A stretch of DNA of 41,341 nt from Desulfuromonas sp. (GTDB lineage Bacteria > Desulfobacterota > Desulfuromonadia > Desulfuromonadales > Desulfuromonadaceae), in NCBI GenBank assembly GCA_021162745.1, contig JAGGYC010000055.1, positions 1 to 41,341 on the forward strand. Direction: 5' to 3'. The notes under the pieces were generated by a model. The model was not told the DNA's origin, made no database searches, and worked only from the letters and a program-made list of their open reading frames with translations. The translations under genes and the position numbers were made by a program. This document shows, one piece after another, positions 5,977 through 40,020 of this stretch (position 1 is its first letter; every line of letters begins with the position of its first letter).

Positions 5977-6741
5977 CTATTCGATCAGGATAGCGTCGTT
6001 ATTATCATCTTCATCATCATGCTCAATCTGTGAGATCTGACCGCCCGTCAGTATCTTACCTTGCTGATCCATAACGCGATCGTCATCAAGGATAATCAAG
6101 CCGGTCTTCTCAACAATATCTTTTTTGTATTGATACTGGAATTCCATCCCTTTTTTACGCAGATTATAACTCATAAACATCCACACCAGACCAAGGATAA
6201 CCCCGACACCAAGCACTACCGCCAGCACGATAAACAGGTAATGCGCAGTTTGCTCACCGACATGACCAATCACCGCCAGAATGCCATCGAGCTTGTAGAC
6301 AACACCAGATAACGCCACCAGCAACAGCAAACCCATCAAAAAAGGGATCTGGCGAATGACGTAAATAACGGCGTGAAACTTCTGTACCCGGCTTTGCTGC
6401 TCAGAATTGGACACTCCGAGACCAGTCCCTACAACTCCCGAAGGCTGGTGACCATAGAGATAACGGTCAAAACCCAGCACGATCACCCCGAGTAAAAAGG
6501 TGATGGTCAACGGAATAATAAAGGCGGCAAAGAAATAGGATTTCCAGGGAAACGGCACATTTTCCGGGCCAAGCTGACTTAAAAAACTGACAAAGAAGAT
6601 AAACCCTTCAATCACCCCGATCAAAATCAGATATTTGATAAACAGATCTTTGAGTTCCTCGCGACCAAACAGTGCCGCAATCCCCTTGCGAGGGACCGAA
6701 CCCTTTTGCTGTGATTTCTGTTGTTCTTCACGCTCTGGCAT
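5977..6741 (-). CDS. Uncharacterised four-helix inner-membrane protein
   Basis: A 254-residue protein I do not recognise. It has a charged, Gln/Lys-rich N-terminus (about 30 residues), then four predicted membrane helices near residues 33-55, 68-92, 122-148 and 165-190. A cytoplasmic-looking C-terminal tail of about 60 residues ends in a strongly acidic DDEDDNND run. No catalytic motif is evident. The ATG at 6741 is preceded by AGGAG at good spacing, and a strong terminator follows the gene, so it is probably a single-gene transcription unit between metY and pepN. The tail sequence (ILDDDRVMDQQGKIL) has no family I can name. Function unknown. Confidence 0.8.
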   Translation of the reverse strand: MPEREEQQKSQQKGSVPRKGIAALFGREELKDLFIKYLILIGVIEGFIFFVSFLSQLGPENVPFPWKSYFFAAFIIPLTITFLLGVIVLGFDRYLYGHQPSGVVGTGLGVSNSEQQSRVQKFHAVIYVIRQIPFLMGLLLLVALSGVVYKLDGILAVIGHVGEQTAHYLFIVLAVVLGVGVILGLVWMFMSYNLRKKGMEFQYQYKKDIVEKTGLIILDDDRVMDQQGKILTGGQISQIEHDDEDDNNDAILIE

Positions 6742-8659: not shown

Positions 8660-9439
8660 ATGAAAACTATCGTCACGTTATGTCTCGTTCTTTTGTCGAG
8701 CCTGGCCCTAGTCTCTGCAGCCACAGCATCTGAAGTTCTCAGCGATGCCGACTGTGTTAAATGTCACATCAATGCCGTTAAGGACGTTGCGGCCCACGGT
8801 GCGGCCCATGCTGAAATGGGTTGCCAGGACTGCCACGCCGAGCACGCGCCCACCGGCAGTAATCCTATCCCTGAATGTGCACTGTGTCATGCCGCCGATG
8901 AAAGCGCTCACTATGCACTCAACAACTGCGTCGGCTGTCACTACCCTCACCACCCGTTGGAAATTGATTTCGCTGCATTGACCGATGTCAAACCGGCTTG
9001 TCTCTCCTGTCACCCGGAACAGGGTAAGGAGATGGCAGCACACCCCAGTGCTCACTCAGAACAGGATTGCAACGAATGTCACAATGCCCACGGTCTGGGC
9101 GAAGGCCAGTTCCAGAACTGCCTCGACTGTCACGAAGGACACTCCGAGGGCATGGTCGTTGCCGACTGCACCAAGTGTCACAAACCACACAGCCCGGTTG
9201 AGGTCACCTACAACGATCTACCTTCCGCCCTCTGTGCCGGTTGCCATGATGATATTGTCGCCGCCCTGGACAAATCGAAGAAGGCGCACCACGACCTGAC
9301 CTGTTCCGAGTGCCATGTGGACGAGCACAAGACCATCACCCCATGCGCGGATTGCCACGGCGAGCCACACGGTATCATGCACCAGAAGTACCCGAACTGC
9401 GTTGAGTGTCATATCGATCCTCACGCATTGGCGGAGTAA
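8660..9439 (+). CDS. Periplasmic 12-haem c-type cytochrome
   Basis: A 259-residue exported cytochrome with a clear signal peptide (cleavage near VSAATA-S, about residue 23) and 12 CxxCH haem motifs, about one haem per 20 residues. The haem spacing (18-13-12-19-18-12-11-17 then 18-9-13) matches the first eight and the last four haems of the 20-haem protein next door, so the two are paralogues. Many extra His in PSAH, GAH and PHxP contexts could supply distal axial ligands. The ATG at 8660 has a strong AAGGAGG ribosome site; an upstream in-frame start at 8591 would spoil the signal peptide. Likely role: soluble periplasmic electron carrier or wire. A transcription terminator follows it, so it may be expressed separately or more highly than the genes behind it. 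Not assignable to a named cytochrome by eye. Confidence 0.93.
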   Translation: MKTIVTLCLVLLSSLALVSAATASEVLSDADCVKCHINAVKDVAAHGAAHAEMGCQDCHAEHAPTGSNPIPECALCHAADESAHYALNNCVGCHYPHHPLEIDFAALTDVKPACLSCHPEQGKEMAAHPSAHSEQDCNECHNAHGLGEGQFQNCLDCHEGHSEGMVVADCTKCHKPHSPVEVTYNDLPSALCAGCHDDIVAALDKSKKAHHDLTCSECHVDEHKTITPCADCHGEPHGIMHQKYPNCVECHIDPHALAE

Positions 9440-9449
9440 GACCATAACC

Positions 9450-9479
9450 GTTGCCGGTCTGCACGCGCAGACCGGCAAC
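9450..9479 (+). terminator. Strong hairpin terminator or attenuator between the first two cytochrome genes
   Basis: A perfect 12-bp stem (9450-9461 with 9468-9479) and a 6-nt loop, followed by ACATTTTTTATT. It has the form of a rho-independent terminator and lies 10 bp after the 12-haem gene. Because the next gene begins only 45 bp later with no obvious new promoter, it may be a partial terminator that sets expression ratios. Confidence 0.8.
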
Positions 9480-9524
9480 ACATTTTTTATTCGACGTTTT
9501 GCTTTCTAACGGTTGATTCTCATC

Positions 9525-10814
9525 ATGCGCATTATCACACGTCAATGGCCGCTCCGTGCCGGCCTGTTTCTTTTGCTGCTGATCTGTAGCTGTGGCCTGA
9601 GCTGGGGAGAAGTTACACCTGTTCCCCTCGACGATGCAGACTGTATCAAATGCCACCGCCAGCCCTCGCTACAAATACGCGAACATGGTGGTGCTCACAA
9701 TACAGAGCTGGGCTGCCTGGGCTGCCACGAGGCACACCCCCCGGCAGGTGAAGCGGTTATTCCCGAATGTGAGCAATGTCATCCGGCGGATGAAAATACC
9801 CACTTTGCTTTGTCCGGTTGCCAGGATTGCCACAGTCCCCATGCCCCGGTTATTCCTGATTTCAGTGAACTCAGTGACGCCAAGCGGGCATGCCTGAGCT
9901 GCCACGACTCGATTGCCACGGCCATGGAACAAAAACCGAGTCTGCACGCAGAACAGGATTGCAGCGAGTGTCACCAGCAACACGGCACCGAGCCCGGCCA
10001 GTTCCTGAACTGTCTTGAGTGTCACGAAGCTCACAGCCCTGACATGGTCTATGCCGACTGCCTGGGTTGTCATAATCCCCACCAGCCAACGGTCTATCAG
10101 TGGTCTGACGAAACACCGTCAAAAAAGTGTGGCGCCTGTCATACCGATCAAGTAGACGAACTGGCCAATGAGGGCAGTGCTCACGCCAGCGAGATCCATT
10201 GCAGCGAATGCCACAGCCAGCATCCACCTGCGGAATCCGGCGTCATCCCGACCTGCGCCGACTGCCACGACCCATCGGAGCATGAGCATTACAAAGTGGA
10301 AAACTGCACGGCCTGTCACCGGCCTCACGCACCGTTGAACATCAACATGGACGCTGTTTCGCCAATCAAACCGGTCTGCACGTCATGCCATGAAGAACCA
10401 GCAAAAGAGATGCAGCACACACCCAGCGCCCATGCCGAGATGGACTGCAATGAATGTCACCAGCAACATGGTGAAGCTCTGTCCTGCCTCGACTGCCACG
10501 ATGGCCACGGTGATGCAATGAGCTACAACGACTGTCTGCGCTGTCATCAGCCCCACAGCCCGACGCGCCTGCAATTTGCTAAATCAGGCGTTCCGACACC
10601 CCTGTGCGGCAGTTGCCACGATGGTCAGTTTGAACAGTTATCCACCAACACCAGTCGACATGCCAAACTACAGTGTGTCTTCTGTCATCGACGGACTCAC
10701 AAGGTAACCCTGAGCTGCGACAACTGCCATGGCGAACCTCACGATTCAAGTATCCACCAACATTTTGATGATTGCGGCAAGTGTCACAAGGGACCGCATA
10801 ATCTGAGAAATTAA
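9525..10814 (+). CDS. Periplasmic 20-haem c-type cytochrome made of repeated 8-haem modules
   Basis: A 429-residue exported protein with a hydrophobic signal sequence (roughly residues 10-28) and 20 CxxCH motifs. Haem-to-haem gaps in the first module are 19-13-12-19-18-12-11-18. They recur as 19-13-12-19-18-8-11-19 in the second, and a four-haem tail (18-9-14) matches the tails of the 12-haem proteins on each side. The protein is therefore 8+8+4 haems where the neighbours are 8+4. It could act as an elongated periplasmic wire. I use the ATG at 9525; a TTG four codons earlier (9513) is possible, and neither has a strong ribosome site. It lies just after the hairpin at 9450-9479 and 25 bp before the next cytochrome gene. 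Confidence 0.92.
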   Translation: MRIITRQWPLRAGLFLLLLICSCGLSWGEVTPVPLDDADCIKCHRQPSLQIREHGGAHNTELGCLGCHEAHPPAGEAVIPECEQCHPADENTHFALSGCQDCHSPHAPVIPDFSELSDAKRACLSCHDSIATAMEQKPSLHAEQDCSECHQQHGTEPGQFLNCLECHEAHSPDMVYADCLGCHNPHQPTVYQWSDETPSKKCGACHTDQVDELANEGSAHASEIHCSECHSQHPPAESGVIPTCADCHDPSEHEHYKVENCTACHRPHAPLNINMDAVSPIKPVCTSCHEEPAKEMQHTPSAHAEMDCNECHQQHGEALSCLDCHDGHGDAMSYNDCLRCHQPHSPTRLQFAKSGVPTPLCGSCHDGQFEQLSTNTSRHAKLQCVFCHRRTHKVTLSCDNCHGEPHDSSIHQHFDDCGKCHKGPHNLRN

Positions 10815-10839
10815 GCCAAAGCAACCGGCGAGGCATGTT

Positions 10840-11676
10840 ATGAAACAACGGCAACAACGATCAACCCCATTGACACTTCTCTGCTCCATGATCTTGATCA
10901 TCGGCCTGGTCACCAGCGTCAGCGCAGAAGAAGCAGATGTTTTTTCTCAACCCGTTAAGCCACTGACAACACTCGAGTGCGCTCAATGTCACGAACAGGT
11001 ATTTGTCGACCTGCGTGACAGCGGCGGCGCTCACCGCATGGTGTGTCGTGATTGCCATGAAACGTTCCACAATGCCAAGCGGAATTTAACGTGGGATCAG
11101 CGCGTTCCAGCCTGTGTTGACTGCCATGAAACTCCGCACGGTGAAGAAGCGGACATGGTCAAGTGTCTGGATTGCCACAGCAATGCTCATGCACCCGTCG
11201 CCAGTCTCGATATCGATCAGCTGGAACCATTATGCGCCCGTTGTCATGAACAACCGGCAGCTGAAATGACCAATCCCAGCGCCCACGCCGATCTCAGCTG
11301 TAACGACTGTCACCAGGAGCAGCACGGTTATCTGCCCAAATGTATCGAATGCCACGAGGAACCCCACTCCCCGTTCATAAACAGTAGCGGCTGCATGCAG
11401 TGCCACCCGGTACATAACGTCAGTGAAATGCTCTATGGCGGGCAGATCAAAAACAGTGACTGTGCCGGCTGCCACGACGGACCCGGTGCGGAGCTGCAAC
11501 AGGGTCACCTGGCTCACTCGCTGCTGAACTGTATATTTTGTCATGCCGATGAACACGGCAACACTCCCGACTGTCAGACCTGCCACGACACCCCTCACAG
11601 TCAAGAGATGCTCAAAGAATTCGCCGGCTGCAACGACTGCCATGGTGGCCCTCACAATCTGCTCCCCGGAGCATAA
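10840..11676 (+). CDS. Periplasmic 12-haem c-type cytochrome (second paralogue)
   Basis: A 278-residue protein with a signal peptide (cleavage near VSA-EEA, residue 30) and 12 CxxCH motifs. Haem gaps are 17-18-12-18-17-9-12-18-18-9-14. The last four haems (CAGCH, CIFCH, CQTCH, CNDCH, then GGPHNL) closely parallel the C-terminus of the 20-haem protein (GPHNL), showing shared ancestry; the N-terminal part has diverged. The ATG at 10840 has a GAGG ribosome site 6 nt upstream. The gene is 25 bp after the 20-haem gene and 40 bp before the Sel1 gene, so probably one operon. Likely a soluble periplasmic electron carrier; partner specificity cannot be deduced. Confidence 0.92.
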   Translation: MKQRQQRSTPLTLLCSMILIIGLVTSVSAEEADVFSQPVKPLTTLECAQCHEQVFVDLRDSGGAHRMVCRDCHETFHNAKRNLTWDQRVPACVDCHETPHGEEADMVKCLDCHSNAHAPVASLDIDQLEPLCARCHEQPAAEMTNPSAHADLSCNDCHQEQHGYLPKCIECHEEPHSPFINSSGCMQCHPVHNVSEMLYGGQIKNSDCAGCHDGPGAELQQGHLAHSLLNCIFCHADEHGNTPDCQTCHDTPHSQEMLKEFAGCNDCHGGPHNLLPGA

Positions 11677-11716
11677 ATAGGGCCTTGCAAGCCATGCAAG
11701 ATAGGGGATAAATCGA

Positions 11717-12796
11717 ATGAGTTCGCGTAAGAAATTAATTCTGAACATACTCTTGTTCGTCAGCTGCATTGCCTTGGCCGGTGGTGCCGTACTGTATAAT
11801 TACGGCTATAAACTGTGCTGGAAATGTTCAACACATGACTATTACAAACGCGGTAAAGAATTTGTCAGTCACGGCGATGATGAGCTGCGTAAGACCGGCG
11901 TCGATTTCCTGCGTCACGCGGCAGATCATGAAGACACTGCCGCACAACTGCTTCTGGCAGAAGGCTATCAGCCCACCCTGCCCGACGGTTATGTCAGCCA
12001 AACAGCTACAGCACGCAACGCCCTGAGCACGCTTCTACCCAAAAATCCGGTAGCGGCTAAACGACTGTTCAACACCGCCTACAATCGTCTTTACAGCGAC
12101 AAAACCATTACAGCAGAACAACTGTACAATATGGCGATTCTGGTGGAAAACGGCATCATCAACCGGGATGATGCTCAACAACTACTCATCGACGCTGCTG
12201 AGGCAGGCAACTATATCGCCATGAGCCGGTTGGGACGTATCCTCCATCGCCAAGCCAACTACGAACAGGCAAAAAAATGGTTACGCCTGGTCGCTGAAGC
12301 AGGTAAGGATGCCCAACCAGCCCTTATCCTCGGTGATTATTTCTTCTATGGCAAAAGCGAAGCGATCAATTACGAAAAAGCGATCCATTGGTACCGCATC
12401 GCCTTAAAAACACAAAAGACACTGACGGCACGCGCCAGTGAAAAGCAACGTCTCGCTGCTGAGGACGCCCCCATGGCACGGATAGAGATGGCCATGCGTC
12501 AGCTACAGAAGAACCGCATGCAAGCACCGATGACATTGCGCTACCATATTGGCGGCAATGCCAGGCGTTATCTCGTTCACACCGAGGATCACCCAGAGGG
12601 AACCATCGGTACCGTCAGTCAGGAAAATGACCTCATTGTTGCCGAGATTGATCCATCCATCACCTTGGCCCTGTCGATCCCGGTCGCGAAAAAAACGTTT
12701 TCATCCATGAATGAAGGGATGGAGTGGGTTCTCCAGTCCTACGCCCGCAGCCGCTACGGCAGCTATACCAAATTTCATTTTGAATTGATCCGCTAA
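11717..12796 (+). CDS. Membrane-anchored Sel1/TPR-repeat protein in the cytochrome cluster
   Basis: A 359-residue protein with one N-terminal membrane helix (about residues 7-28) and the rest presumably periplasmic. A CWKC pair just after the helix lacks the following His, so it is not a haem site. Helical repeats of Sel1 type are visible near residues 155-235 (AAEAGNYIAMSRLGRI, then AEAGKDAQPALILGDY). The C-terminal 90 residues look like a separate mixed alpha/beta domain (YHIGGNARRY onward). Sel1 repeats usually mediate protein-protein contacts. Its place between cytochrome genes suggests an assembly or scaffold role for the electron-transfer complex, which is inference from position only. 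The AGGGGA ribosome site is well placed. A strong hairpin follows the gene. Confidence 0.8.
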   Translation: MSSRKKLILNILLFVSCIALAGGAVLYNYGYKLCWKCSTHDYYKRGKEFVSHGDDELRKTGVDFLRHAADHEDTAAQLLLAEGYQPTLPDGYVSQTATARNALSTLLPKNPVAAKRLFNTAYNRLYSDKTITAEQLYNMAILVENGIINRDDAQQLLIDAAEAGNYIAMSRLGRILHRQANYEQAKKWLRLVAEAGKDAQPALILGDYFFYGKSEAINYEKAIHWYRIALKTQKTLTARASEKQRLAAEDAPMARIEMAMRQLQKNRMQAPMTLRYHIGGNARRYLVHTEDHPEGTIGTVSQENDLIVAEIDPSITLALSIPVAKKTFSSMNEGMEWVLQSYARSRYGSYTKFHFELIR

Positions 12797-12816
12797 CACC
12801 AAAGATCACTCATCGC

Positions 12817-12856
12817 CGCTGGTGGAGCCGTACGAACATGGTCGGCTCCACCAGCG
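12817..12856 (+). terminator. 14-bp perfect hairpin after the Sel1 gene
   Basis: Arms 12817-12830 and 12843-12856 pair perfectly over 14 bp around a 12-nt loop, 20 bp after the Sel1 stop. No T run follows on the plus strand, so it may be an mRNA-stabilising 3' structure or processing site rather than a classical terminator. It separates the soluble-cytochrome genes from the barrel and conduit genes. Confidence 0.6.
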
Positions 12857-13088
12857 TATCTGCCCCCAGCCCGAACATCCCCTTTCGCCCTTGCACCACT
12901 CCTTTGCTTTCCACATTTCATATCCACGCATTCAGCTTTTTGCCTCTCTGCGCTTTGCAGGACCACAAACACTGGACAGTTCCATTTTCTTGGTTAGATT
13001 TGTTAAAAAGCGTCCGCTAAGGAAATAAGGACAACTCCACATCAGCCCCATATCAAACGAATCTCTGCACTGAAGAAAGGGAGGCAGA

Positions 13089-14303
13089 ATGAAGGGTTGG
13101 CACAAGCTGTTTCTCGGCATCGCTATCCTATCCACAGTGGCTCTGCCGCTGCATAGCGCGCTGGGAGCAACAACCTCAGGACGATCAAGCACTGAGTTCG
13201 AATGGTACGATACCGCAGATGGCGATACCGCCGTCCCCTTCTATCAATACCTGCTGCTCAATGTTCACGACATTGACAGCGATGGGATGACCTTTCGCGG
13301 CTATGGACGACTGGCCGACGACTTAGCCGATGAGATGGATGTCGACAGTCGCATCTACTACGCCTACATTGAGAAAAAAGAGTTACTCAAGAATCTGGAT
13401 CTGCGCTTTGGTCGTCAGTTTATTTCCACCACCGCCGGAGCCTCGATCATGGATGGCCTGTACCTCGAATACGGTGGGCAGGACGATTTCAATATCACCC
13501 TGTTTGGTGGTGGCGATGTCGCCTACTACGAGGGCTACAATGCCAAGGATCTGATCGCCGGCATTGAGATCAGCCGCTCATTTTTTAACGACTTGAACCT
13601 CGGCCTGTCCTATCTGCAAAAGTGGGATCATAGCGAACTGGCCAATGAACTGTTTGGCCTCGATCTCGACTACGATTTCAACGAGAGACTGCATATCTAC
13701 AGCGAGACGCAGTTCAACTATCTGGCCAACACCATCAGTTATTTTCTGGTCGGCAGCCAATACCACCGTAGCGAGAACTGGTCACTACGCGCCGAGTACC
13801 TCTATTCCCTGCCGGTATTCTCCTCCACCTCCATCTATTCGGTATTCGCCGTCGATGAGTATCAGGAACTGTTCGTCGAATATGAGCAGCGCATTGCTCT
13901 GGGTCTACGTGCGTTTATCAATTACGCCCGCGAGATGTACGTGTATGGCGCCGATGCCGACGTATTCGAAGCGGGTCTGGAAAAGATCCGTACCGGCCGG
14001 TTTTCCGGTTATGTGATCGGCACCTGGCGTGACGATCCCGATGGTCAGGACTTGGCCGGAGTCAAACTGTATGGTGCTACCACCATCAACCATAAATTTC
14101 AAGCCGGAGCCGGTATCCACCTCGACGTGCTGGAGCGCTATCTCGACGAGGATGAGGATGATACCACCAGCTCACGGATATGGGTCGACGGTATGATCAC
14201 CTTTAATCGCAAGGTCAACGTGCAAGCCAAGGTGGAACGGATTGAAAGCGATCGGTGGGACGATTACTACCGTGGCCGAGTCCGTCTGAATGTCCGTTTC
14301 TAA
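13089..14303 (+). CDS. Outer-membrane beta-barrel protein of a porin-cytochrome conduit
   Basis: A 404-residue exported protein with a signal peptide (cleavage near ALGA-TTS, about residue 26). The mature chain is rich in alternating aromatic/polar beta strands, with many Tyr, Asp and Trp residues and no long hydrophobic helix. It ends in a C-terminal Phe (RVRLNVRF), the usual signal for outer-membrane barrel insertion. It is followed 13 bp later by a decahaem cytochrome and then a 13-haem surface lipoprotein. This is the arrangement of porin-cytochrome conduits such as Mtr or Omb-Oma-Omc, in which the barrel holds a cytochrome across the outer membrane. By length it is smaller than MtrB (about 700) and closer to OmbB-class porins. 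GGAGG-type ribosome site. Assignment rests on features and context, not an alignment. Confidence 0.8.
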   Translation: MKGWHKLFLGIAILSTVALPLHSALGATTSGRSSTEFEWYDTADGDTAVPFYQYLLLNVHDIDSDGMTFRGYGRLADDLADEMDVDSRIYYAYIEKKELLKNLDLRFGRQFISTTAGASIMDGLYLEYGGQDDFNITLFGGGDVAYYEGYNAKDLIAGIEISRSFFNDLNLGLSYLQKWDHSELANELFGLDLDYDFNERLHIYSETQFNYLANTISYFLVGSQYHRSENWSLRAEYLYSLPVFSSTSIYSVFAVDEYQELFVEYEQRIALGLRAFINYAREMYVYGADADVFEAGLEKIRTGRFSGYVIGTWRDDPDGQDLAGVKLYGATTINHKFQAGAGIHLDVLERYLDEDEDDTTSSRIWVDGMITFNRKVNVQAKVERIESDRWDDYYRGRVRLNVRF

Positions 14304-14316
14304 AAAGGAGTCACAT

Positions 14317-15156
14317 ATGAAGCACAGTGTACAGAGACTATTGATCGTTCTGGCCATGCCTGCGATCGTGCTGGTGACATCCACAGTCTGGGCGACACCG
14401 TTCGATCATGATGACCACTTGAGCGTTCTGGAAGGGGAGTCCTGTCTCACCTGTCACGTTGAAGACGGTAAAAGCATCAGCCCTGACCAGGCAATGTGCC
14501 TGCAATGCCACGAAGCAGAGATGCTGGCTGAGGTCACCTATCCGGGACTGAAAACTCACGGCGCCAGCTGGGCGCTGAGTCACCGCGCGATCGCCAAAAA
14601 TCAAACCATCGACTGCGCCAGCTGCCACCAACAGAGTGATTGTCTGGAATGTCACAGCGCCGGCCTCGGCGACGAGATGGGCCAGTTCAGCAACAACATG
14701 AGCAATGTTCACCGCAGCGACTTCCATGTCAGTCACCCCATTGCCGCCCGCACCAATCCACAATTGTGCAGCAGCTGTCACGAAGCGGGCTACTGTTCGG
14801 ACTGCCACAACGACTTTCGCCGCAGCTCGCTGGCCGGAGCGTCACATCAACGTAGTTTCAGCAGTCTGACCGTTGGTCCTAATGGCCCGGCCCATGAAAA
14901 TTTCAGCGAAGCACAATGCCAGCTCTGCCATATCGGTTCGATTTTACCCAGCCATGAATGGACAACAGCTCACGCCCGCGAAGCACGCAAGAATCTGGTC
15001 ACCTGTCAGACCTGTCACCCCGACGGTGATGTCTGCATCAAGTGTCACAGTGCCCGCACAGGCTTAGGCGTTAATCCCCACCCCAGAGACTGGGATAATA
15101 TCAAGGGGAGAATGCTACGGGCCAGCAATGGTCGCAGCTGTCGCAAGTGTCACTAA
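14317..15156 (+). CDS. Periplasmic 10-haem c-type cytochrome (candidate barrel-inserted partner)
   Basis: A 279-residue protein with a signal peptide (cleavage near VWA-TPF, about residue 26) and ten CxxCH motifs. Two are closely spaced pairs: CASCH-QQSD-CLECH and CSSCH-EAGY-CSDCH, with only four residues between motifs. The haem count and its place after the barrel gene suggest the role of MtrA or OmaB, the periplasmic cytochrome that sits inside the barrel. Its haem spacing differs from the 12- and 20-haem proteins upstream, so it is a separate lineage. The ATG at 14317 has AAGGAG 7 nt upstream; an earlier in-frame ATG overlapping the barrel gene is unlikely. Next gene 23 bp downstream. Confidence 0.9.
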   Translation: MKHSVQRLLIVLAMPAIVLVTSTVWATPFDHDDHLSVLEGESCLTCHVEDGKSISPDQAMCLQCHEAEMLAEVTYPGLKTHGASWALSHRAIAKNQTIDCASCHQQSDCLECHSAGLGDEMGQFSNNMSNVHRSDFHVSHPIAARTNPQLCSSCHEAGYCSDCHNDFRRSSLAGASHQRSFSSLTVGPNGPAHENFSEAQCQLCHIGSILPSHEWTTAHAREARKNLVTCQTCHPDGDVCIKCHSARTGLGVNPHPRDWDNIKGRMLRASNGRSCRKCH

Positions 15157-15179
15157 CAACGCCACCACAGGAGGACGAA

Positions 15180-17501
15180 ATGAAGATTAAACAATGGCTC
15201 TCACTGTTCGCAGTGATCAGCAGCATGCTGTTTGCAGCCTGTGGCAGCAATTCCGGATCCGGCGGTGATCAGACAGCAAGCCTCGCCGATGATCTCGGCA
15301 ATGATAATTCAGGTATCGCTTTGGTCGGCACCGCCGTCTGCATCGGTTGCCACGAAGACTTCAGTTGGAGTGCACAAGAGGTGGCCGACTATTTGGCAGG
15401 CAAGCACGTAGTCCACAGCAGCCACATCAGCCAGGCCGATGCCGCTGACGACTGCCTCGATTGTCATGATCCCATCGGCGACAGTGCCGAGCTTGAAACT
15501 CTGATCGATCCAGCCAATGTCCCTGCTGAAGGCCTAGCCGCCGTCGGTTGTGAAAACTGCCACGGTGCAGGCGGTGACCACTACGGTGTCGGGCCGATGC
15601 CGGTGGCCACACCTGATTACACCGTCTGTGCCACCTGTCACGATGAACTGCCGGACAGCCATCTGAGCTATCACCCTGAAGCCAACTTCATCGCCACAAA
15701 GTTTGTCGCCTCGCGTCACTTTACCACCACGGTGATCACTGAGGCGATCTGCTCCAAGTGTCATAGCGACGAAGGGGCTAAACAGTATAAAGATGTCACC
15801 AGCCGCGAACAATTGCTGGCAATAGTGCTCCCCGTTGCCACGGATGATCCCATCCAGTGCCGCACCTGCCATAACCCACACCATGCCGGTGGACTGCTGC
15901 TGGAGTCAGTGGAGAGTGGCGGCGAGCTGGTGGAAAGCGCGGAATATGCCACTTGCGTCAGCTGCCACATGGCAGCGGATGCCACGATGGCTGATGACGG
16001 CATGGGCGGCACCGACTGGGATAACACCGAGCTGATCTACCATCAGGATGTCTACTATCGTATCATCACCGACAGCCACTCCGATGATCCGGCAACAACG
16101 GACATCATCGAAGGCTATGTCATCAATCCGAAGAGTGATCGCGCCTGCCGAGACTGTCACGATGTCCATAGTGTGGTCGAAATCCGTGCCGATGATGACT
16201 CGGCCAGCTTCTCTAATACGATTCACGACCAGTGGTCAATGTCCGGCCATGGCGGTTTTATCGGCACCATCAAGCTGGCCAAAGCAGAAGAGTATGATGA
16301 CATGGCTCTCAACCTCACCACCGAACAAAGCGTTGCCATTAAAGAGGCAGGTGTCACCTCAGCTGATGCCGATGCCTGGGTCCATTACGATTGGGATGCC
16401 CAAGATCGCCAGTCCTGCCAGGATTGCCATACGGCCACCGGAGCCAAAAATTATCTGAACGATCCGGCGGGCTATGACGCCGCCGACAACGATTTCTCCC
16501 ATCTCGTCGGCTGGTCTATCGCCGATGGCGTGGTCACCTCATCCGGCCAGAACGAACTGCTCTACTGCTGGGGCTGCCACAGCGACAACAGCGGCGGCCT
16601 GCGCAATCCCGGCGCTATCAGCCAGCCCTACACCGTCGATGGCGCTGCCGTCATTCTGCCCGACCAAGGCAACTCCAATGTCTGTATCAACTGCCACGGT
16701 GCTCGCGGCAATATGGACTCCTACCAGATCGGCGCCAGCGATGCGCCATTGAGCGGTGATCCAAGCGCTGACATGTCCGCATATCTGCCCGGTTTCGTCG
16801 GCAACACTGAAAACGTCACCGCACCCCACTATGCAGCGGCGGCCGCCACCCTGTTCCAGGCCCGAACCCGCATCGGTTACCAGTATGGTGGTCTGAGCTA
16901 CGCCGATCTGCCCTACTTCGCCCATGACGTCACCGCCCTCAACAGCGACGCTCCCGAAAGCGGCAGTGGTCCCTGTGTCGCTTGCCACATGGAAACCGCC
17001 ACAGGCCACAGCTTCGAGGTGGTGGGAAAAACCGGGGACGTCATCACCGGCCTGAATTCGACCGTCTGTATCAACTGTCATGACGGTGGACATGGTCCCG
17101 CCCTGGTGGTTGAGGACACTACCATCGACGGCACCCTGCATACCGCTGCCGCTGCGGCGGCCTTGCTGCAAGAGGAAGCGGAAGGCTTTCACGATGCCTT
17201 GGCGCTGCTGCAAGCGGAATTGCTAGTTAAAGAGCTGACCTTCACCGGCAGCTATCCCTACTTTGCCGGTGCAAGATGGATCGACGAAGGCACCTTTGGT
17301 GCCGCCCATAACTTCAACTACCTGCACCATGAGCCGGGAGCCTATGCCCACAACCGCATCTACGCCAAGCGATTGATTTTTGACTCCATTAACTGGCTGC
17401 AAGATGGTGTCCTTGACGGCACCATCGCCATCAATGCCGCTATGTACCCAGAAGCAACCGCCTGGTTAGGCGCTGATGCCGGAGTGGCTTCCCGTCCGTA
17501 A
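15180..17501 (+). CDS. Large 13-haem outer-membrane lipoprotein cytochrome
   Basis: A 773-residue protein with a lipoprotein signal (LFAAC, Cys at about residue 18) followed by a Gly/Ser-rich linker. Thirteen CxxCH motifs are spread over residues 55-640; the last 130 residues contain no haem and include helical, Ala-rich sequence and an aromatic/His-rich stretch (FNYLHHEPGAYAHNR). The low haem density (1 per 60 residues), lipidation and position after a barrel and a decahaem cytochrome suit a surface terminal reductase or adaptor in extracellular electron transfer. The ATG at 15180 has an AGGAGG ribosome site. It is the last gene of the cluster and is followed by a strong terminator. Named homologues (OmcB, Ext-type proteins) are possible but cannot be decided by eye. 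Confidence 0.9.
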   Translation: MKIKQWLSLFAVISSMLFAACGSNSGSGGDQTASLADDLGNDNSGIALVGTAVCIGCHEDFSWSAQEVADYLAGKHVVHSSHISQADAADDCLDCHDPIGDSAELETLIDPANVPAEGLAAVGCENCHGAGGDHYGVGPMPVATPDYTVCATCHDELPDSHLSYHPEANFIATKFVASRHFTTTVITEAICSKCHSDEGAKQYKDVTSREQLLAIVLPVATDDPIQCRTCHNPHHAGGLLLESVESGGELVESAEYATCVSCHMAADATMADDGMGGTDWDNTELIYHQDVYYRIITDSHSDDPATTDIIEGYVINPKSDRACRDCHDVHSVVEIRADDDSASFSNTIHDQWSMSGHGGFIGTIKLAKAEEYDDMALNLTTEQSVAIKEAGVTSADADAWVHYDWDAQDRQSCQDCHTATGAKNYLNDPAGYDAADNDFSHLVGWSIADGVVTSSGQNELLYCWGCHSDNSGGLRNPGAISQPYTVDGAAVILPDQGNSNVCINCHGARGNMDSYQIGASDAPLSGDPSADMSAYLPGFVGNTENVTAPHYAAAAATLFQARTRIGYQYGGLSYADLPYFAHDVTALNSDAPESGSGPCVACHMETATGHSFEVVGKTGDVITGLNSTVCINCHDGGHGPALVVEDTTIDGTLHTAAAAAALLQEEAEGFHDALALLQAELLVKELTFTGSYPYFAGARWIDEGTFGAAHNFNYLHHEPGAYAHNRIYAKRLIFDSINWLQDGVLDGTIAINAAMYPEATAWLGADAGVASRP

Positions 17502-17530
17502 TTCCCCAGTTCAAATACTCAAACAAAAAA

Positions 17531-17560
17531 AGCCCCGGCAACATTCTTTGCCGGGGCTTT
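17531..17560. terminator. Bidirectional terminator between cytochrome cluster and ettA
   Basis: A 10-bp perfect stem (17531-17540 with 17551-17560), flanked by an A run on the left and a T run on the right. It ends both the plus-strand cytochrome transcript and the convergent minus-strand ettA transcript. Confidence 0.92.
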
Positions 17561-17580
17561 TTTCATATAACTGAGCTGAC

Positions 17581-22023: not shown

Positions 22024-22711
22024 CCGCCACCGGCAAGGTCAGACAGAGTAAGGCGATCGCCGCCAATCGTTGCAGCGGCTCACTGATCAGCTCGGCACCC
22101 ACGCCCAACTGCGCCTGCACCTGTAGATCCAAGGCCACATACAGCCAGTCGACCACCAAACCGGACACCACCGCCCCCAGTGCCACCATCAACAGATAGA
22201 CCAGCGTCGCCCGCCGTCCCAGCAGATGGATCAGCACCGTCAACGAGGTGATATTGGTGGCAGGACCGGCGAGGAGAAACACCCGTGCCGCACCGGGACT
22301 TACCCCCCTGCATAATCAGCGCCGCAGCAATGGGGGTCGAGGCACTGGCACAGATATAGATGGGGATCCCCACCGCCAGCATGATCAGCATCGACGGCAA
22401 GCCTCCGCCCAACCAGCGCTGCATCAATTCTTGCGGAACCAGGGTGGTGATCAACCCGGCCAGCAACAAACCAATGAAGAACCAGCCCGCCATATCCGCC
22501 CACACTGGGGTAAAGGCATAGCGTAAGCCATCACGCAAAGAACGGCGACTGAGGGGCTGTGGCAACAGCAACGATTCAGGGCGCTCCTGGCGCTGAGGCA
22601 ACAGATTTTCCACCACCCCAGCAGCGATGGCGGTAGACAACGCCGCCAGAGGTCGGGCAATGGTTAGTAACGGATCAAGGCTTCATTTATAATGCTCAGT
22701 ATAAAGGTCAT
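21989..22711 (-). pseudogene. Broken UPF0718/DUF318-type permease (internal deletion plus frameshift)
   Basis: Pieces of one membrane permease can be read in different frames. The start (MTFILSIINEA, ATG at 22711) jumps after 11-13 codons to LDPLLTIARPLAAL in another frame and hits a stop in its own frame. In this family about 100 residues, including the CSCG segment, normally lie between those parts, so an internal deletion at about 22670-22682 is inferred. A second lesion is a run of six C (22303-22308 on plus) where five would restore ALIMQGVSPGAARVFLLAGP. The tail is intact to the stop at 21989. The ATG overlaps the TPR stop (ATGA). Intact relatives are membrane permeases, some linked to metal or metalloid export. 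Confidence 0.85.
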
Positions 22712-23982
22712 GGTGTCCGTTCCTGCAACTGACGAAGCAACTCCTTAGCCCGTTGTCGTTGTTCAGAAAACCTTTGCGCCTGACGAAGGGCCAGGCGTGC
22801 CTCAGCCCACAGTTCACCATTCCAGGCGGCATAGGCCGTCATCAACCACAACGGCCCCGGCTGCTCAGACTGCTTTGCCAATCGCCCGAACAACTCACTG
22901 GCCTCGGCATAACGCTCAAGGCTGAACAGCAGCTGCCCCTGTAATTGTAACAGCTCTGGATCGCTCTGTGCCCCCTGCTGCTGCGTCCAATACAATGCCT
23001 GCTGCGGTTGATGCAGATTCAGGCTGGCGTGGGCGAGGCGGGTCAGCACCTGACGGTCATGAGGCTGAGTTTTCAGCAATTGCTGATAATAGTGCTGCGC
23101 CTGCTGCGGCACGCCGAGGCTGAGGTGAAGATCGGCCAGCAGCCGGGTTTGTTCAGTGCTGAGCGGTTGCAGATAGCCCACCACTTTCAGCGCCACCAAG
23201 CCCTGTTCATAGTGTCCTGCTTCAAGATGGAGATGGGTAAGCAACGTCCACCAGCGCGAGTGTAAACCATCCTCATCAGTGTAGCGATTCAGGGCGTTCA
23301 ACGCCTGATCGCTCATCCCCAGCACCATGTATTGCTGCACCAGCAATTCACGCCAACGACGCTGCGGCTCATGCTGGGTGTGCTCAGCCAGAAACTGCAA
23401 TTGCGGCAGCGCCTGACGTGGTTGCTCCAATTGCAGATAAACCTGCACCAACGCCCCGCGCCAGCTATTATCAATCTGCTCTGCGGGTCGATCAATCAGT
23501 TGGCGTAACACCGTCAACGCCGACTGCGATTGTTCGGCCTGCAGGTACGAGAGGGCGGCATTGTAGAGCAAGGATAGACGCTCAGGCCGGGTCAGGGCAA
23601 AACTGCGTTCAAAGGCTTGCCCAGCACCAGCATAGTCATCACTGACATACAATGCCTGAGCCAGATTGAGCCAGCCCGGCGCATAGTCGGCCTGCTTGAC
23701 CACCACCCGGCGCAGCCAGGGAATCGCCAGGGCCGGGCGCTCGGAGAGCAGATAGGCATTGGCGCGACAGAAATCGATAAGATAGTGTCCACTATCCTTG
23801 GCCTCAATCCCCAGCAATTTGAGCGCCTGATCGTAGCGCTGCTGTTCAAGCAGTTGCTGTGCTTCGACCACCTTACGGCGCACCGCCAGCGGAATATTCT
23901 GTGCCGCGACCGCCACCACCAACTGTACCCCCAGCAGCATAACAACACTGAGGAGGATTATTTTTATCCACCGCTGCATCAT
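22708..23982 (-). CDS. TPR-repeat protein of the TonB2 system
   Basis: A 424-residue protein with an N-terminal signal or anchor helix (about 6-27) followed by successive tetratricopeptide-like helical pairs through most of the chain (for example YAPGWLNLAQALYVSDDYAGA and LLYNAALSYLQAEQSQSALTVL). It starts 3 bp after tonB ends, so the two are surely co-transcribed. Vibrio TonB2 clusters also end with a TPR gene downstream of tonB2. TPRs would bind a partner in the periplasm; the specific partner is unknown. The stop overlaps the start of the permease pseudogene. Confidence 0.85.
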   Translation of the reverse strand: MMQRWIKIILLSVVMLLGVQLVVAVAAQNIPLAVRRKVVEAQQLLEQQRYDQALKLLGIEAKDSGHYLIDFCRANAYLLSERPALAIPWLRRVVVKQADYAPGWLNLAQALYVSDDYAGAGQAFERSFALTRPERLSLLYNAALSYLQAEQSQSALTVLRQLIDRPAEQIDNSWRGALVQVYLQLEQPRQALPQLQFLAEHTQHEPQRRWRELLVQQYMVLGMSDQALNALNRYTDEDGLHSRWWTLLTHLHLEAGHYEQGLVALKVVGYLQPLSTEQTRLLADLHLSLGVPQQAQHYYQQLLKTQPHDRQVLTRLAHASLNLHQPQQALYWTQQQGAQSDPELLQLQGQLLFSLERYAEASELFGRLAKQSEQPGPLWLMTAYAAWNGELWAEARLALRQAQRFSEQRQRAKELLRQLQERTP

Positions 23983-23985
23983 CGG

Positions 23986-24654
23986 CTACGACTCCAACTC
24001 AAAACGGATGGTGGTGACCACCCAACTACGCACCGCTTCGCCATCAATGGTGCCGGGGGTGAAGCGCCAGCCGCGCACTCCGCGCTCGACGGTGCTCTCA
24101 AACATATCTTTGGGCTGCGCTTCAAGGATCTGCACCTGTTCGACATCGCCCGTGGTCGAGATCAGCATCTTCACCCGCACCCAACCCTCGATCCCCAGAC
24201 GCTTGGCGCGCAGCGGATAGATAAACGGCGATTGTGCCAGTGGCGTCAACGGCCGATCCAGGGCCGCACTGTCAAACACACTCGGCACCGGCTCCAACCG
24301 GGTCAACTGCACCTCAGGCATCGCCACCCCACCCAGGCTGCTGGGGATTTCCGGCTGCAACTGGAGATTAAGTTTCAACCGTTGAACCTGAGGTTTTGGC
24401 GTGCGCTGAGCGATGCGCTGCTTGACTACCTGTTGTTCAGGAGGCTTTTGAGCCGCTTGCTGACGTGGCGATGGTGATGGTGGAGACACCCGCACCACCG
24501 ATACGGAAACAGCCGGCAGCTCATCACGTCGCGGCTGTTGTTGGCCGATCAACTGCGGCATCAACCAGAACAACAGCAGATTGATCGCGAGCGTGGCGAC
24601 CACGGCCAGACCGAGTTGAACAGTTGAATTTTGTAGCCAAAATCGTCGTGCCAC
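23986..24654 (-). CDS. tonB: TonB-family energy transducer (TonB2 type)
   Basis: A 222-residue protein with one N-terminal membrane helix (about 13-35), a Pro/Gln/Lys-rich periplasmic linker, and a C-terminal TonB domain (YPLRAKRLGIEGWVRVKMLI near 145-165, then VRGWRFTPGTIDGEAV). It transmits proton-motive-force energy from ExbB/ExbD to outer-membrane transporters. The start is a GTG at 24654 with a modest CAGGA site. The short linker is characteristic of TonB2-like proteins. Unlike the tight spacing elsewhere in this operon, 458 bp of repeat DNA separate it from exbD, which may have put it under different transcription. No TonB-dependent receptor is present in the window. Confidence 0.9.
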   Translation of the reverse strand: MARRFWLQNSTVQLGLAVVATLAINLLLFWLMPQLIGQQQPRRDELPAVSVSVVRVSPPSPSPRQQAAQKPPEQQVVKQRIAQRTPKPQVQRLKLNLQLQPEIPSSLGGVAMPEVQLTRLEPVPSVFDSAALDRPLTPLAQSPFIYPLRAKRLGIEGWVRVKMLISTTGDVEQVQILEAQPKDMFESTVERGVRGWRFTPGTIDGEAVRSWVVTTIRFELES

Positions 24655-25112
24655 GCTTAGTGTCCTGTCATCGGTTATATTTTCGAGTGATCATTTTCAC
24701 GTCATCTCCCTAGTCAGGGAGAGGAGCTAATCAGCGATGTGCAAAAAAATGAGTTGTCGGAGTCCGCTGCGTTAACCCGATCTGCCGCTACGGATTTTCC
24801 CGTTCATGATGAAATATCATTGATCAAATTACGCGGGCCGCAAGGGATCAGGCCCGCCTTTCGCAGCTCGGGTAGATACGCGGTTGGCACACTGAAATCG
24901 TTGCATTGCACAGGTTGTTACTTTGGTTTACAAAGCCATTTCTTTGCACCCTTTCTTTGGGGCTTTACAAAGAAAGAGTGTCGCCTGCGGGGCGAATCCC
25001 GCGAACTTGATCTTATGGATTTTAGGGGTTTGATCAATATTGCTCCAGCACCAAACGGGGATGCCACTACAAGACAATTCTGCCAGCCTAACAATTTAAG
25101 CCATACAGGACA
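24655..25112. other. Non-coding gap inside the TonB2 operon
   Basis: 458 bp with no credible gene; a plus-strand frame here lacks a ribosome site and tracks the repeat. It is filled by repeat copy B (24803-25080) and a 7-bp hairpin (24705-24711 with 24716-24722). Confidence 0.75.
24803..25080 (+). repeat. Dispersed structured repeat, copy B
   Basis: A near full-length copy (about 280 bp) aligning along its length with copy D. The order is: GATGAAATATCAT edge, a GCGGGCC...GGCCCGC hairpin, a spacer with CACTGAAA, the CTTTCTTTG...CAAAGAAAG hairpin (24951-24976), a GCGGGG/CCCGC block, GAACTTGATCTT, then GATCAATATTG and CCAAACGG. Confidence 0.85.
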
Positions 25113-25529
25113 CTACTCTCCAGCAACACCGGCGGCCAGCGCCACATCTTGGGCCCCGGCCTGACGACAGGCATCCATCACCTCAATAGCTGTACCGGTG
25201 CGACTGCCGCGATCGGCGACAATCACCACGCTGCCTTCGGGATTTTCAGCCAGTGCCCGTTCAACGTGGATCCGCACCGCACGTATATCAATCGGACGAC
25301 GCTCGACGTAGATCTGGTCATCGGCGGTAACGGCAATCAGGATGGTGGCGTGTTCTTTACTCACCGCCGTGGCGGCGGTGGGGCGCTGCACATCAATGCC
25401 GGTTTCACGGACAAAACTGGTGGTGACCAGAAAGAAGATCAGCAGAATAAACACCATGTCGATCAACGGTGCAATATTCAGTTCCAGGGTTTGCCGTTTG
25501 GCGCGGCGGCTGGAGGTAACATTAATCAT
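25113..25529 (-). CDS. exbD: ExbD/TolR-family biopolymer transport protein
   Basis: A 138-residue protein with a single N-terminal membrane helix containing the conserved proton-path Asp (D24, in PLIDMVF), then a small periplasmic domain. It works with ExbB as a proton-driven stator-like motor that energises TonB. The ATG at 25529 overlaps the exbB stop as ATGA and has a GGGGAG ribosome site within exbB; an upstream in-frame start is less likely. It is separated from tonB by the repeat-filled gap. Confidence 0.93.
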   Translation of the reverse strand: MINVTSSRRAKRQTLELNIAPLIDMVFILLIFFLVTTSFVRETGIDVQRPTAATAVSKEHATILIAVTADDQIYVERRPIDIRAVRIHVERALAENPEGSVVIVADRGSRTGTAIEVMDACRQAGAQDVALAAGVAGE

Positions 25530-26152
25530 AGTACGCTCTCCCCCGACAATTCTCGCGACAACTCCCGTTTCAGGCACAACCCCAGTGAGCTGAGGCGCTG
25601 CTTGAGATTTTCGGCGCGTCGCTGAAGGAAATTGCGCATATACAGACCCGGAATGGCAATCAACAGACCAGTCTGGGTGGTGACCAGCGCTTCGGAGATA
25701 CCACCGGCCATAGCCCGAGCATTGCCGGTGCCAAACAGGGCGATACTGTCAAAGGTGGTGATCATCCCCACCACGGTGCCGAGCAAGCCGAGCAGCGGCG
25801 CAATGGCCGCCAACACGCCGATCAGCGTCAGCCCCCGCTCCAGACGTGCCGCAACCGTCAACAATGCTTCATCGACCACATGGCCATCCAGTTGCGGATA
25901 GCCACTTTTACGACTAACGAATTCGCTGACCAGCCGCGAAGTAATACCGGCATACTCAGCCGGTGGCAACACACCACGGCGGGCGTAATCGATGGCTTGA
26001 GCCTCGGCCATGTTGTGATCGTACAACCCCTTCAGACATAACAGCCGCTGAATAATCAGCGCCCACATCAGCAGTGACACCGCCACCAGCGGCCACATGA
26101 TAATGCCGCCGGTGCTCAGGTAATCTTCGATCGTACGCCATGATGCCATCAT
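25526..26152 (-). CDS. exbB: ExbB/MotA/TolQ-family proton channel subunit
   Basis: A 208-residue inner-membrane protein with three membrane helices (about 18-38, 110-135, 150-172). The two C-terminal ones carry the family motif APLLGLLGTVVGMI and the GGISEALVTTQTGLLIAIP stretch. It forms the proton channel with ExbD. It begins at the ATG at 26152, overlapping the ttpC stop (ATGATGG arrangement, with a second in-frame ATG immediately following), and overlaps exbD by ATGA at its end. This is the short ExbB2-type partner next to the long TtpC. Confidence 0.93.
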   Translation of the reverse strand: MMASWRTIEDYLSTGGIIMWPLVAVSLLMWALIIQRLLCLKGLYDHNMAEAQAIDYARRGVLPPAEYAGITSRLVSEFVSRKSGYPQLDGHVVDEALLTVAARLERGLTLIGVLAAIAPLLGLLGTVVGMITTFDSIALFGTGNARAMAGGISEALVTTQTGLLIAIPGLYMRNFLQRRAENLKQRLSSLGLCLKRELSRELSGESVL

Positions 26153-27588
26153 GACGACGACTCTCCACCACCGAAACGCGCCTTGCACACTACATTGACA
26201 AAGCGGATCGATTTTTCCTCCAGCTGGGCGATCAGCGTTTCCACCCGCCGACTGAGCAGGCTATGGCAGAGCATGATCGGAATCGCCACGCCAAGACCGA
26301 GCATGGTGGTGATCAGCGCTTCAGAGATGCCGCTCGACATCAGTCGCGGATCACCGGTGCCGTGGAAGGTGATCACCTGGAAGGTGTTGATCATACCGGT
26401 AACAGTGCCGAGCAGTCCGAGCAGCGGCGCAATGGAGGCCAGCACTGCCAAAGTGGAGAGAAAACGTTCCAGACGCGGTATCTCGCCGAGAATCGCCTCT
26501 TGCAGGGCATTTTCCAGATCTTCCCGGCCCATGGTTCGATAGCGTAACCCCGCGCTCAACACCCGCGGCAGCGGTTTGTCGGCACTGTGCTGACAGGCAC
26601 TCTCGCAGCCACTCCAGTCACCGTCAGCCACCAACGGTTCGATGGTGTTGAACAGGGCATCGGCGTCAAAGCGGTTGCGCCGCAAAAACCAGCTGCGCTC
26701 AACGATCAGCACCAGTGCCACAGCACCGATCAATACAATCGGCCAGACGATAAAACCACCCTGCCCCAACTGGTCGGTCAGGCCGGTGCGATAATTAAGC
26801 TGACGCAATGACGCGCCACGACCGATATCGATGGGTGCACTGGCGCTTTCACCATCGAGATAACGTTCAATCTGTTTCTGCCAGCGCCGCCCCGGCAACT
26901 GCGACAACGCAAACAAGCGACCACTTGGCGGCGAATAGAGCAGAAAACCGCTCTCATCAACGGTGCGATAGGCAGCACTGAAATCACCGAGCATCAACAC
27001 ATCGGCAGCGCGCTGCTCACCCTGACGGTCGAGAATGGTCTGGCGGACAATCTGCACCTCTGCGGTAGCGGTCATCTCGTCAAGCAACAGAGCACTAAGA
27101 GCGCGCACATCATCCATGCCGGGAAAACGCTCCTGCTGCTGTAGTACGTTCAACACCTCGGTGCGCCCGGGACGCAGGGCATTGATCTGGCTATGTTGCA
27201 ACAGGGCATCGCTCTCTTTGGCACTGACACGGATAAAACCCAACAGCTCCTGCAAGCGGACGCTGCGCTGCTGCTGTTCCGTTTGCAGCGCAGTCTGCTG
27301 CACCGTCAAGCGGCTGAGCTGTTTTTTCAACGAGCGGGTCTGCTGTTTAAGATCAGCGACATCGCCACGTAGCGTTTTCACCGCCTGCCGTAGAGCTGTG
27401 CGATCCGCCAGCAACTGCTGACGCTGCTTGGTCGCCAGTGTTTCAGCCCGCAGCTGCTCCTGTTCGGCGGCGGCAACCACCTGTTGTTGTTGTTGCTGCA
27501 GGGCCTGGGCCCGCTGGCGTTGATCTTGCCCCAGAGCGGGCAGTGTGGTTAAGACCACAAGGATCAAGGTGATGATCATCGCTTTCAT
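26149..27588 (-). CDS. ttpC: TtpC-like ExbB-family protein with periplasmic coiled-coil extension
   Basis: A 479-residue protein with a signal peptide (cleavage near ALG-QDQ), a long Gln/Leu-rich coiled coil (about residues 22-125) and a globular periplasmic part. A C-terminal ExbB/MotA-like three-helix module follows from about residue 285 (GFIVWPIVLIGAVALVLIVE, then SIAPLLGLLGTVTGMI). This is the architecture of Vibrio TtpC, an extra subunit needed by TonB2 systems. The start overlaps the DUF3450 stop by ATGA, and the end overlaps exbB, so expression is translationally coupled. Confidence 0.92.
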   Translation of the reverse strand: MKAMIITLILVVLTTLPALGQDQRQRAQALQQQQQQVVAAAEQEQLRAETLATKQRQQLLADRTALRQAVKTLRGDVADLKQQTRSLKKQLSRLTVQQTALQTEQQQRSVRLQELLGFIRVSAKESDALLQHSQINALRPGRTEVLNVLQQQERFPGMDDVRALSALLLDEMTATAEVQIVRQTILDRQGEQRAADVLMLGDFSAAYRTVDESGFLLYSPPSGRLFALSQLPGRRWQKQIERYLDGESASAPIDIGRGASLRQLNYRTGLTDQLGQGGFIVWPIVLIGAVALVLIVERSWFLRRNRFDADALFNTIEPLVADGDWSGCESACQHSADKPLPRVLSAGLRYRTMGREDLENALQEAILGEIPRLERFLSTLAVLASIAPLLGLLGTVTGMINTFQVITFHGTGDPRLMSSGISEALITTMLGLGVAIPIMLCHSLLSRRVETLIAQLEEKSIRFVNVVCKARFGGGESSS

Positions 27589-39800: not shown

Positions 39801-40020
39801 GCTGAACCACTTGGATATTCTCTAAAATCTGCTGTTGGGTCAGGAGGATGTCAGCGTTTTTGAAGCCCGACTCTGCAAATAATTTCGGTTGAGTGGCTTT
39901 TGTCACGCCGGGGTCAATCCTGTAACCATGACCTGCTGTATTCGGCTGCCCTTTGAAGCAATTCAGTACTGCATCGACGGCACGAGTCTGGTACGCCTGC
40001 TTTTTAAATTTGAGTTTCAC
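36847..40020 (-). CDS. Type III-like restriction enzyme Res subunit (helicase-nuclease)
   Basis: A 1057-residue SF2 helicase-nuclease. Walker A METGTGKT is at 117-124, followed by the [15 protein letters not shown] segment characteristic of Type III Res proteins. Motif II is DEPQ at 243-246, motif III is SAT (269-271), then [10 protein letters not shown] and a motif VI VGRGLRI. The C-terminal nuclease has the PD-(D/E)xK pattern NPDW (957-960) and ETK (977-979). In Type III systems Res acts with a Mod methyltransferase; Mod should lie upstream on the minus strand, beyond the right edge. DNA here is less GC-rich than the metabolic genes, fitting a defence island. The ATG is at 40020; a good AGGAGGCC ribosome site precedes it. 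Confidence 0.9.

Follow-up and report, generated by a model that had tools for sequence, protein, structure and literature searches.

A contig of a marine Desulfuromonas sp. (JAGGYC010000055.1) carries side by side, on one strand, five multihaem cytochrome genes, the gene of an outer-membrane barrel and that of a Sel1-like protein, and the question is whether these seven genes form one electron-transfer system or more than one. The window analyzed here is the whole stretch of 41,341 nucleotides, one contig from a 2.9-Mb genome that is 97% complete. The initial annotation reported seven genes on one strand with 67 haem sites, the five cytochromes having 12, 20, 12, 10 and 13 CxxCH motifs, and proposed a single conduit with its own dedicated wires. 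The gene and haem counts were reproduced: seven open reading frames, all on the plus strand, span positions 8660-17501, with outer ends exactly as annotated, and contain 12, 20, 12, 0, 0, 10 and 13 CxxCH in genes 1 to 7. Residue shuffles of each cytochrome gave on average 0.05-0.45 CxxCH and never more than three, and the rest of the window holds just three further CxxCH in any frame, with none on the minus strand. The proposal of one conduit with dedicated wires fared less well. We favour, with a probability of about 0.72, two neighbouring electron-transfer modules: module B (genes 5-7: barrel, decahaem protein and 13-haem lipoprotein), a conduit of the Pcc type, and module A (genes 1-4: 12-20-12-Sel1-like), whose haem-dense periplasmic cytochromes are made of tetrahaem units and are not dedicated to module B.

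Distribution of the two modules

The comparison of related genomes speaks for this reading. Of the 14 genomes analysed for the family, all have the Sel1-like gene and 10 the barrel. Wherever the contig reaches, a divergent metC-like gene is followed by genes 1-3 (12, 20 and 12 haems) and then by the Sel1-like gene. Module B comes directly after module A in just six genomes, all from this genus (G000, G001, G005, G007, G008 and G009), and module A occurs without an adjoining conduit in three genomes of the same genus (G002, G003 and G004) and three of the same family (G011, G012 and G013). At the scale of the class (277 genomes), barrel homologues are found in 161 genomes and strong, near full-length matches to the Sel1-like protein in about 22; many Desulfuromonadia genomes have the conduit without the Sel1-like gene. 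Because the modules are separable across genomes, module A being found alone and the conduit being found without the Sel1-like gene, a single conduit with dedicated wires is not supported. Modules A and B are neighbours here but evolve independently; in this organism, module B may receive electrons from module A, which is not dedicated to it.

The genes that flank the conduit point to how this neighbourhood could have arisen. The Sel1-like gene is followed in G002 and G003 by a 162-aa (amino acid) gene and then by an ABC-F gene; the window and G008 instead have the conduit in the interval from the Sel1-like gene to ABC-F. Because of these two arrangements, the conduit looks like a block that was inserted between the Sel1-like gene and ABC-F, or lost elsewhere.

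The sequence also gives no support to a single seven-gene operon, since hairpins split genes 1 and 2 and genes 4 and 5 (Table 1). The first of these hairpins is a probable intrinsic terminator or attenuator. A strong hairpin lies in the gap between genes 1 and 2 in 12 of the 12 genomes read, i.e., the window and 11 relatives (L082, at 6364-6395, L034, L035, L037, L039, L042, L044, L045, L048, L050 and L051), and the stem sequences are mostly unrelated between genomes. This recurrence with differing stems suggests a conserved attenuation or processing after gene 1.

Table 1. Positions of the seven genes and of the hairpins in the window
Feature	Position	Strand	Evidence
Gene 1, module A: dodecahaem cytochrome, 259 aa, Sec signal peptide	8660-9439	+	12 CxxCH
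Hairpin between genes 1 and 2: perfect 13-bp stem, T-rich tail	9450-9479	+	DNA hairpin
Gene 2, module A: 20-haem cytochrome, 429 aa	9525-10814	+	20 CxxCH, repeat spacing
Gene 3, module A: second-type dodecahaem cytochrome, 278 aa	10840-11676	+	12 CxxCH
Gene 4, module A: Sel1/TPR-like protein, 359 aa, N-terminal membrane anchor	11717-12796	+	Pfam Sel1 below cut-off, alignment
Perfect 14-bp hairpin, 3′ of gene 4, inside the 292-bp gap before the barrel gene	12817-12856	+	
Gene 5, module B: predicted OmbB-type 22-strand outer-membrane barrel, 404 aa	13089-14303	+	AlphaFold, fold search, homologues
Gene 6, module B: OmaB-type periplasmic decahaem cytochrome, 279 aa	14317-15156	+	10 CxxCH, homology
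Gene 7, module B: putative OmcB-type surface lipoprotein cytochrome, 773 aa	15180-17501	+	13 CxxCH, lipobox-like motif, homology
Bidirectional intrinsic terminator at the end of the cluster (16-bp stem, A and T tracts)	17526-17563	.	hairpin search

Beyond the cluster, the minus strand encodes a TonB/ExbB/ExbD-like transport operon with DUF3450 and TPR proteins (22708-28382) and, close to the contig end, a type III restriction enzyme (Res; 36847-40020). The plus strand encodes consecutively a flavin/NAD oxidoreductase, a molybdopterin oxidoreductase and a 4Fe-4S protein (30939-34908), a set that is possibly formate dehydrogenase-like. A PHROGs search returned nothing useful.

Module A cytochromes and the Sel1-like protein

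The first three cytochromes had been described as a separate, haem-dense paralogous family, and their identities agree with this: the gene 2 product is 49% identical to that of gene 1 and 39% identical to that of gene 3. All of them consist of tandem tetrahaem units of about 80 residues (three in gene 1, five in gene 2 and three in gene 3) with a near-fixed CxxCH spacing of 24-18-17, 23-13(17)-16 or, at the C-terminus, 23-14-19; gene 1 reads 23,18,17 / 23,17,16 / 23,14,18 and the first unit of gene 3 reads 22,23,17. Proteins of this type, which have been little described so far, carry one haem per about 20-25 aa. In 236 units from 49 proteins, the spacing is near-invariant and each type of unit conserves four histidines outside the haem motifs, a number that bis-histidine haems without an open catalytic site would call for. 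Gene 1, whose ATG is preceded by the ribosome-binding site AGGAGG, matches the Cytochrome_C7 and Cytochrom_c3_2 profiles. The profile of the tetrahaem unit matches PDB chains that include MtrA, the 16-haem HmcA and STC/CctA (6r2q_A, 1.4e-12; 1z1n, 4.6e-12; 1gws, 4.3e-8; and 1m1p, 9.6e-8, of which it covers just a part). Gene 2 does not reach the NCBIfam equivalog cut-off for CctA (42.7 bits vs 180).

In other families, the counterpart of gene 2 at the same kind of locus is a single protein of 1069 to about 1530 aa with 53, 65, 73 or 77 CxxCH. The giant gene is followed by a gene 3-type dodecahaem gene and usually then by the Sel1-like gene. Gene 1-type and gene 3-type pairs are also found at other loci devoid of a Sel1-like gene, one such cluster carrying NHL, PPIase, 26-haem and 16-haem genes. 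In relatives, this second cluster (L211, 4392-17707, and L214, 3678-18001) encodes gene 1-type and gene 3-type dodecahaem proteins, to which L211 adds an NHL protein, a 678-aa unknown protein, LpoB-like, FlgD-Ig-like and PPIase proteins and 26-haem and 16-haem cytochromes. A 12-haem relative is located near a conduit in G408, a single case that gives no evidence of coupling.

A published inventory of cytochromes in Desulfuromonadia (Soares et al. 2024, BMC Genomics, cited in PMC12977616) may already have counted the proteins with 53-77 haems. Very high haem counts and origin in the same bacterial order are shared with them by two giant cytochromes already known, that of D. soudanensis with 69 haem motifs (PMC4914508) and that of D. 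acetexigens with 86 (PMC12133095). The 69-haem protein was rejected as a member of the tandem tetrahaem kind, since gene 2 finds no strong counterpart in the presumed D. soudanensis genome. Over 100 kb of this genome, at the expected place of DSOUD_0664, the largest cytochrome has 58 CxxCH in an open frame of 2802 codons; because its motifs are sparse and irregular, it is of another kind than the tandem tetrahaem proteins.

Gene 4 had been annotated as encoding a membrane-anchored Sel1 protein. The anchor stands, but the Sel1 label is weak, with a Pfam score of 22.7 bits for a curated cut-off of 30.7. The N-terminus is positively charged and has one predicted membrane segment, directly followed by a CxxC (CWKC, residues 34-37) that is kept in 19 of the 19 homologues reaching the N-terminus, down to 24-29% identity. 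Furthermore, the gene is linked to cytochrome genes at every locus read on a sufficiently long contig. Because the CxxC is invariant and lies just outside the membrane, a role in maturation or tethering is suggested, and the protein probably handles, reduces or tethers the apocytochromes of module A during their maturation. A membrane-anchored CxxC, TPR-like repeats and linkage to cytochrome genes are also known from CcmH/CcmI and NrfF/NrfG of System I maturation (PMC3601427). However, the repeats of the gene 4 protein are Sel1-like and not TPR, its anchor, CxxC and repeats follow each other in that order within one polypeptide, and it has no detectable sequence homology with these proteins. 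Our proposal is limited to a protein that may work like CcmH/CcmI and does not extend to membership. The odds fall only a little short of even that it is instead a structural tether or a signalling scaffold taking no part in cytochrome maturation. Sel1/TPR repeats commonly mediate protein contacts, and searches of Pfam and NCBIfam gave no CcmH/CcmI profile match; however, both the invariance of the CxxC in such divergent homologues and the linkage to cytochrome genes speak against a scaffold.

Taken together, the two modules could be placed on a path from the inner membrane to extracellular acceptors. Quinol oxidation at the inner membrane would reduce periplasmic carriers (the genome carries separate c7-like proteins and one NapC/NirT-family gene), and the exported module A proteins, the apoforms of which the anchored CxxC/Sel1-like protein may mature, reduce or tether, would probably relay or store electrons between this oxidation and outer-membrane conduits. 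In module B, the 22-strand barrel would sheathe a decahaem wire crossing the outer membrane, from which the 13-haem surface lipoprotein would take electrons and reduce extracellular acceptors. It is rather unlikely that the cytochromes of module A serve chiefly as a capacitor, a haem store taking up electrons when acceptors are absent, and not as a directed wire. Their extreme haem density would suit such a store, as would a haem number that varies from 12 to 77 while the unit pattern is unchanged, but the conserved pairing with a second dodecahaem type suggests a specific partner. We hold as tentative, and unlikely in its full form, the proposal that module A is, in Desulfuromonadales, a distinct system of modular periplasmic wires, with a length set by 3-19 units, its own CxxC-Sel1 assembly factor that matures or loads the apocytochromes, and conduits that it serves interchangeably. 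Whatever their role, these proteins repeat a single tetrahaem building block in a natural length series (3, 5, 13, 16, 18 and 19 units). With such a series, the influence of haem number and wire length on electron transfer or storage could be tested directly. The Sel1-like protein, in turn, is a candidate assembly factor specialised for very haem-dense proteins.

Module B and its copies

The gene order previously taken as that of a conduit (barrel, decahaem protein, surface lipoprotein) is borne out by homologous operons with the same order. The predicted outer-membrane barrel also finds agreement in the AlphaFold2 model, which was built from 21 sequences and has 22 strands with a mean predicted local distance difference test score (pLDDT) of 85, and in the C-terminal residue, a Phe. 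The best fold matches are 22-strand outer-membrane barrels (Z of about 20, root-mean-square deviation of about 4 over about 340 residues); the matches listed (Foldseek, VIA) are general outer-membrane barrels, with no conduit barrel among them. The protein is 82% identical to a record of Desulfuromonas sp. BM513. Its most conserved stretch, LPVFSSTSIYSVFAV (residues 241-258, positions 13809-13862), is modelled with low confidence as the loop joining strands 13 and 14, which may touch the decahaem protein where this lies within the barrel.

The barrel profile matches, with E values of 1e-45 to 1e-65, the barrels of Geobacterales operons made of barrel, 8-haem and lipoprotein genes. The Geobacterales homologues are ordered as barrel, 8-9-haem cytochrome and 8-12-haem lipoprotein, and several of these genomes have two copies of the conduit a few kilobases apart. 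The decahaem protein shows 33-48% identity to the 8/9-haem partners of Geobacterales (229-278 aa), and the 13-haem lipoprotein has 32% identity along its whole length to 12-haem lipoproteins (741 and 768 aa; 342 and 337 bits). This homology, together with a lipobox-like FAAC (LTAC in relatives), is consistent with the annotation of gene 7 as a surface lipoprotein. Because of the synteny and homology with the Geobacterales operons, module B is assigned, at the sequence level, to the OmbB-OmaB-OmcB (Pcc) type. The synteny with a characterised conduit thus concerns the last three genes (PMC4245776, PMC8235581) and not the whole set of seven.

Two complete genomes of the genus have a duplicated conduit, with the copies at distant loci (L038/L039 in G007 and L035/L036 in G008). 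The DNA identity between copies is 99.9% for the barrel and 99.1% for the decahaem gene in G007, and 99.5% and 99.8%, respectively, in G008, compared to 69.5% (G007) and 73.3% (G008) for the lipoprotein genes. These lipoproteins match the copies of other species (90% protein identity between G007a and G008b, 91% between G008a and G009). The lipoproteins of G001 and G009 are 93-100% identical in the first six sampled segments but fall mostly to 21-50% over the last third, which points to a C-terminal exchange of surface-protein cassettes. The simplest reading would be that gene conversion acts on the barrel and periplasmic genes and that surface cytochromes are maintained and exchange cassettes. 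The same pattern was reported for omcB/omcC of G. sulfurreducens (PMC4245776), as was the replacement of surface lipoproteins across the order (PMC6148476). The relatives of the window provide clear cases in which the barrel and periplasmic genes are homogenised and the surface cytochromes, at dispersed loci, diverge and recombine.

An integrated seven-gene system, in which the 12-20-12 set would be the periplasmic wire of the conduit and the Sel1 protein its inner-membrane dock, has in its favour that six genomes of the genus keep the genes on the same strand and in the same order and that both modules need partners, since neither has an inner-membrane quinol dehydrogenase, but it is improbable given the six genomes with a conduit-free module A (G002, G003, G004, G011, G012 and G013), the much wider distribution of the barrel than of the full-length Sel1-like gene in the class (161 genomes vs only about 22), the hairpins between genes 1 and 2 and 3′ of gene 4, and the second conduit copies distant from module A. 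Some observations nevertheless weigh against two separate modules with the roles proposed here. That A and B adjoin in six genomes could be a sign of functional coupling, one 77-haem locus (G511) is devoid of the Sel1-like gene, and the Sel1-like protein, as said above, matches no CcmH/CcmI profile. In addition, the AlphaFold model of gene 1, based on six sequences, had a pLDDT of 42 and was left unused, and the homology of module B to OmbB, OmaB and OmcB themselves runs via other Geobacterales operons and published work.

Comparison with known systems

Module B is most similar to the OmbB-OmaB-OmcB and OmbC-OmaC-OmcC conduits of G. sulfurreducens and Desulfuromonas relatives, with which it shares the gene order and the combination of a porin-like barrel, a periplasmic multihaem cytochrome and a multihaem lipoprotein. 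In both cases, duplicates keep identical barrel and periplasmic genes while the surface protein diverges (PMC4245776, PMC6148476). However, the conduit of the window has 10 haems instead of 8 in the periplasmic cytochrome and 13 instead of 12 in the surface protein, and thus adds haem-number variants to this type; moreover, the duplicates of its relatives are dispersed over the chromosome, whereas Pcc duplicates are in tandem. Clusters of pcc genes have been named in G. daltonii FRC-32, G. uraniireducens Rf4 and D. acetoxidans DSM 684 (Shi et al. 2014, PMC4245776). According to published work (PMC8235581), ombB-omaB-omcB occur in several Desulfuromonas strains and ombB is absent from D. soudanensis; in the presumed genome of the latter, we found at best a weak match to the barrel.

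The Ext conduits (ExtABCD, ExtEFG and ExtHIJKL) and MtrCAB have the same design, i.e., a barrel, a periplasmic cytochrome and a surface redox lipoprotein, but were reported to have no sequence homology with the OmcB type (PMC6148476), and it is by this published description that the Ext proteins are set apart from module B. The barrel and the decahaem protein have no sequence match to the MtrB or MtrA chains of the PDB. Pfam assigns an MtrC/MtrF-like domain to genes 6 and 7, and the fold lists of the barrel are dominated by other barrels. Membership of the MtrCAB and Ext systems was set aside in favour of the OmcB type.

Concatenation of small cytochromes is a principle known from HmcA and GSU1996. 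The module A cytochromes resemble STC/CctA, MtrA, HmcA (16 haems) and GSU1996-type c7 in that the profile of their tetrahaem unit matches the chains of these proteins, but differ from all of them by their 3-19 units, their almost fixed spacing and their 20-25 aa per haem. Overall, the conduit is of an already known type, and the modular tetrahaem wires, a new form of a known principle, are the more interesting part of this locus.

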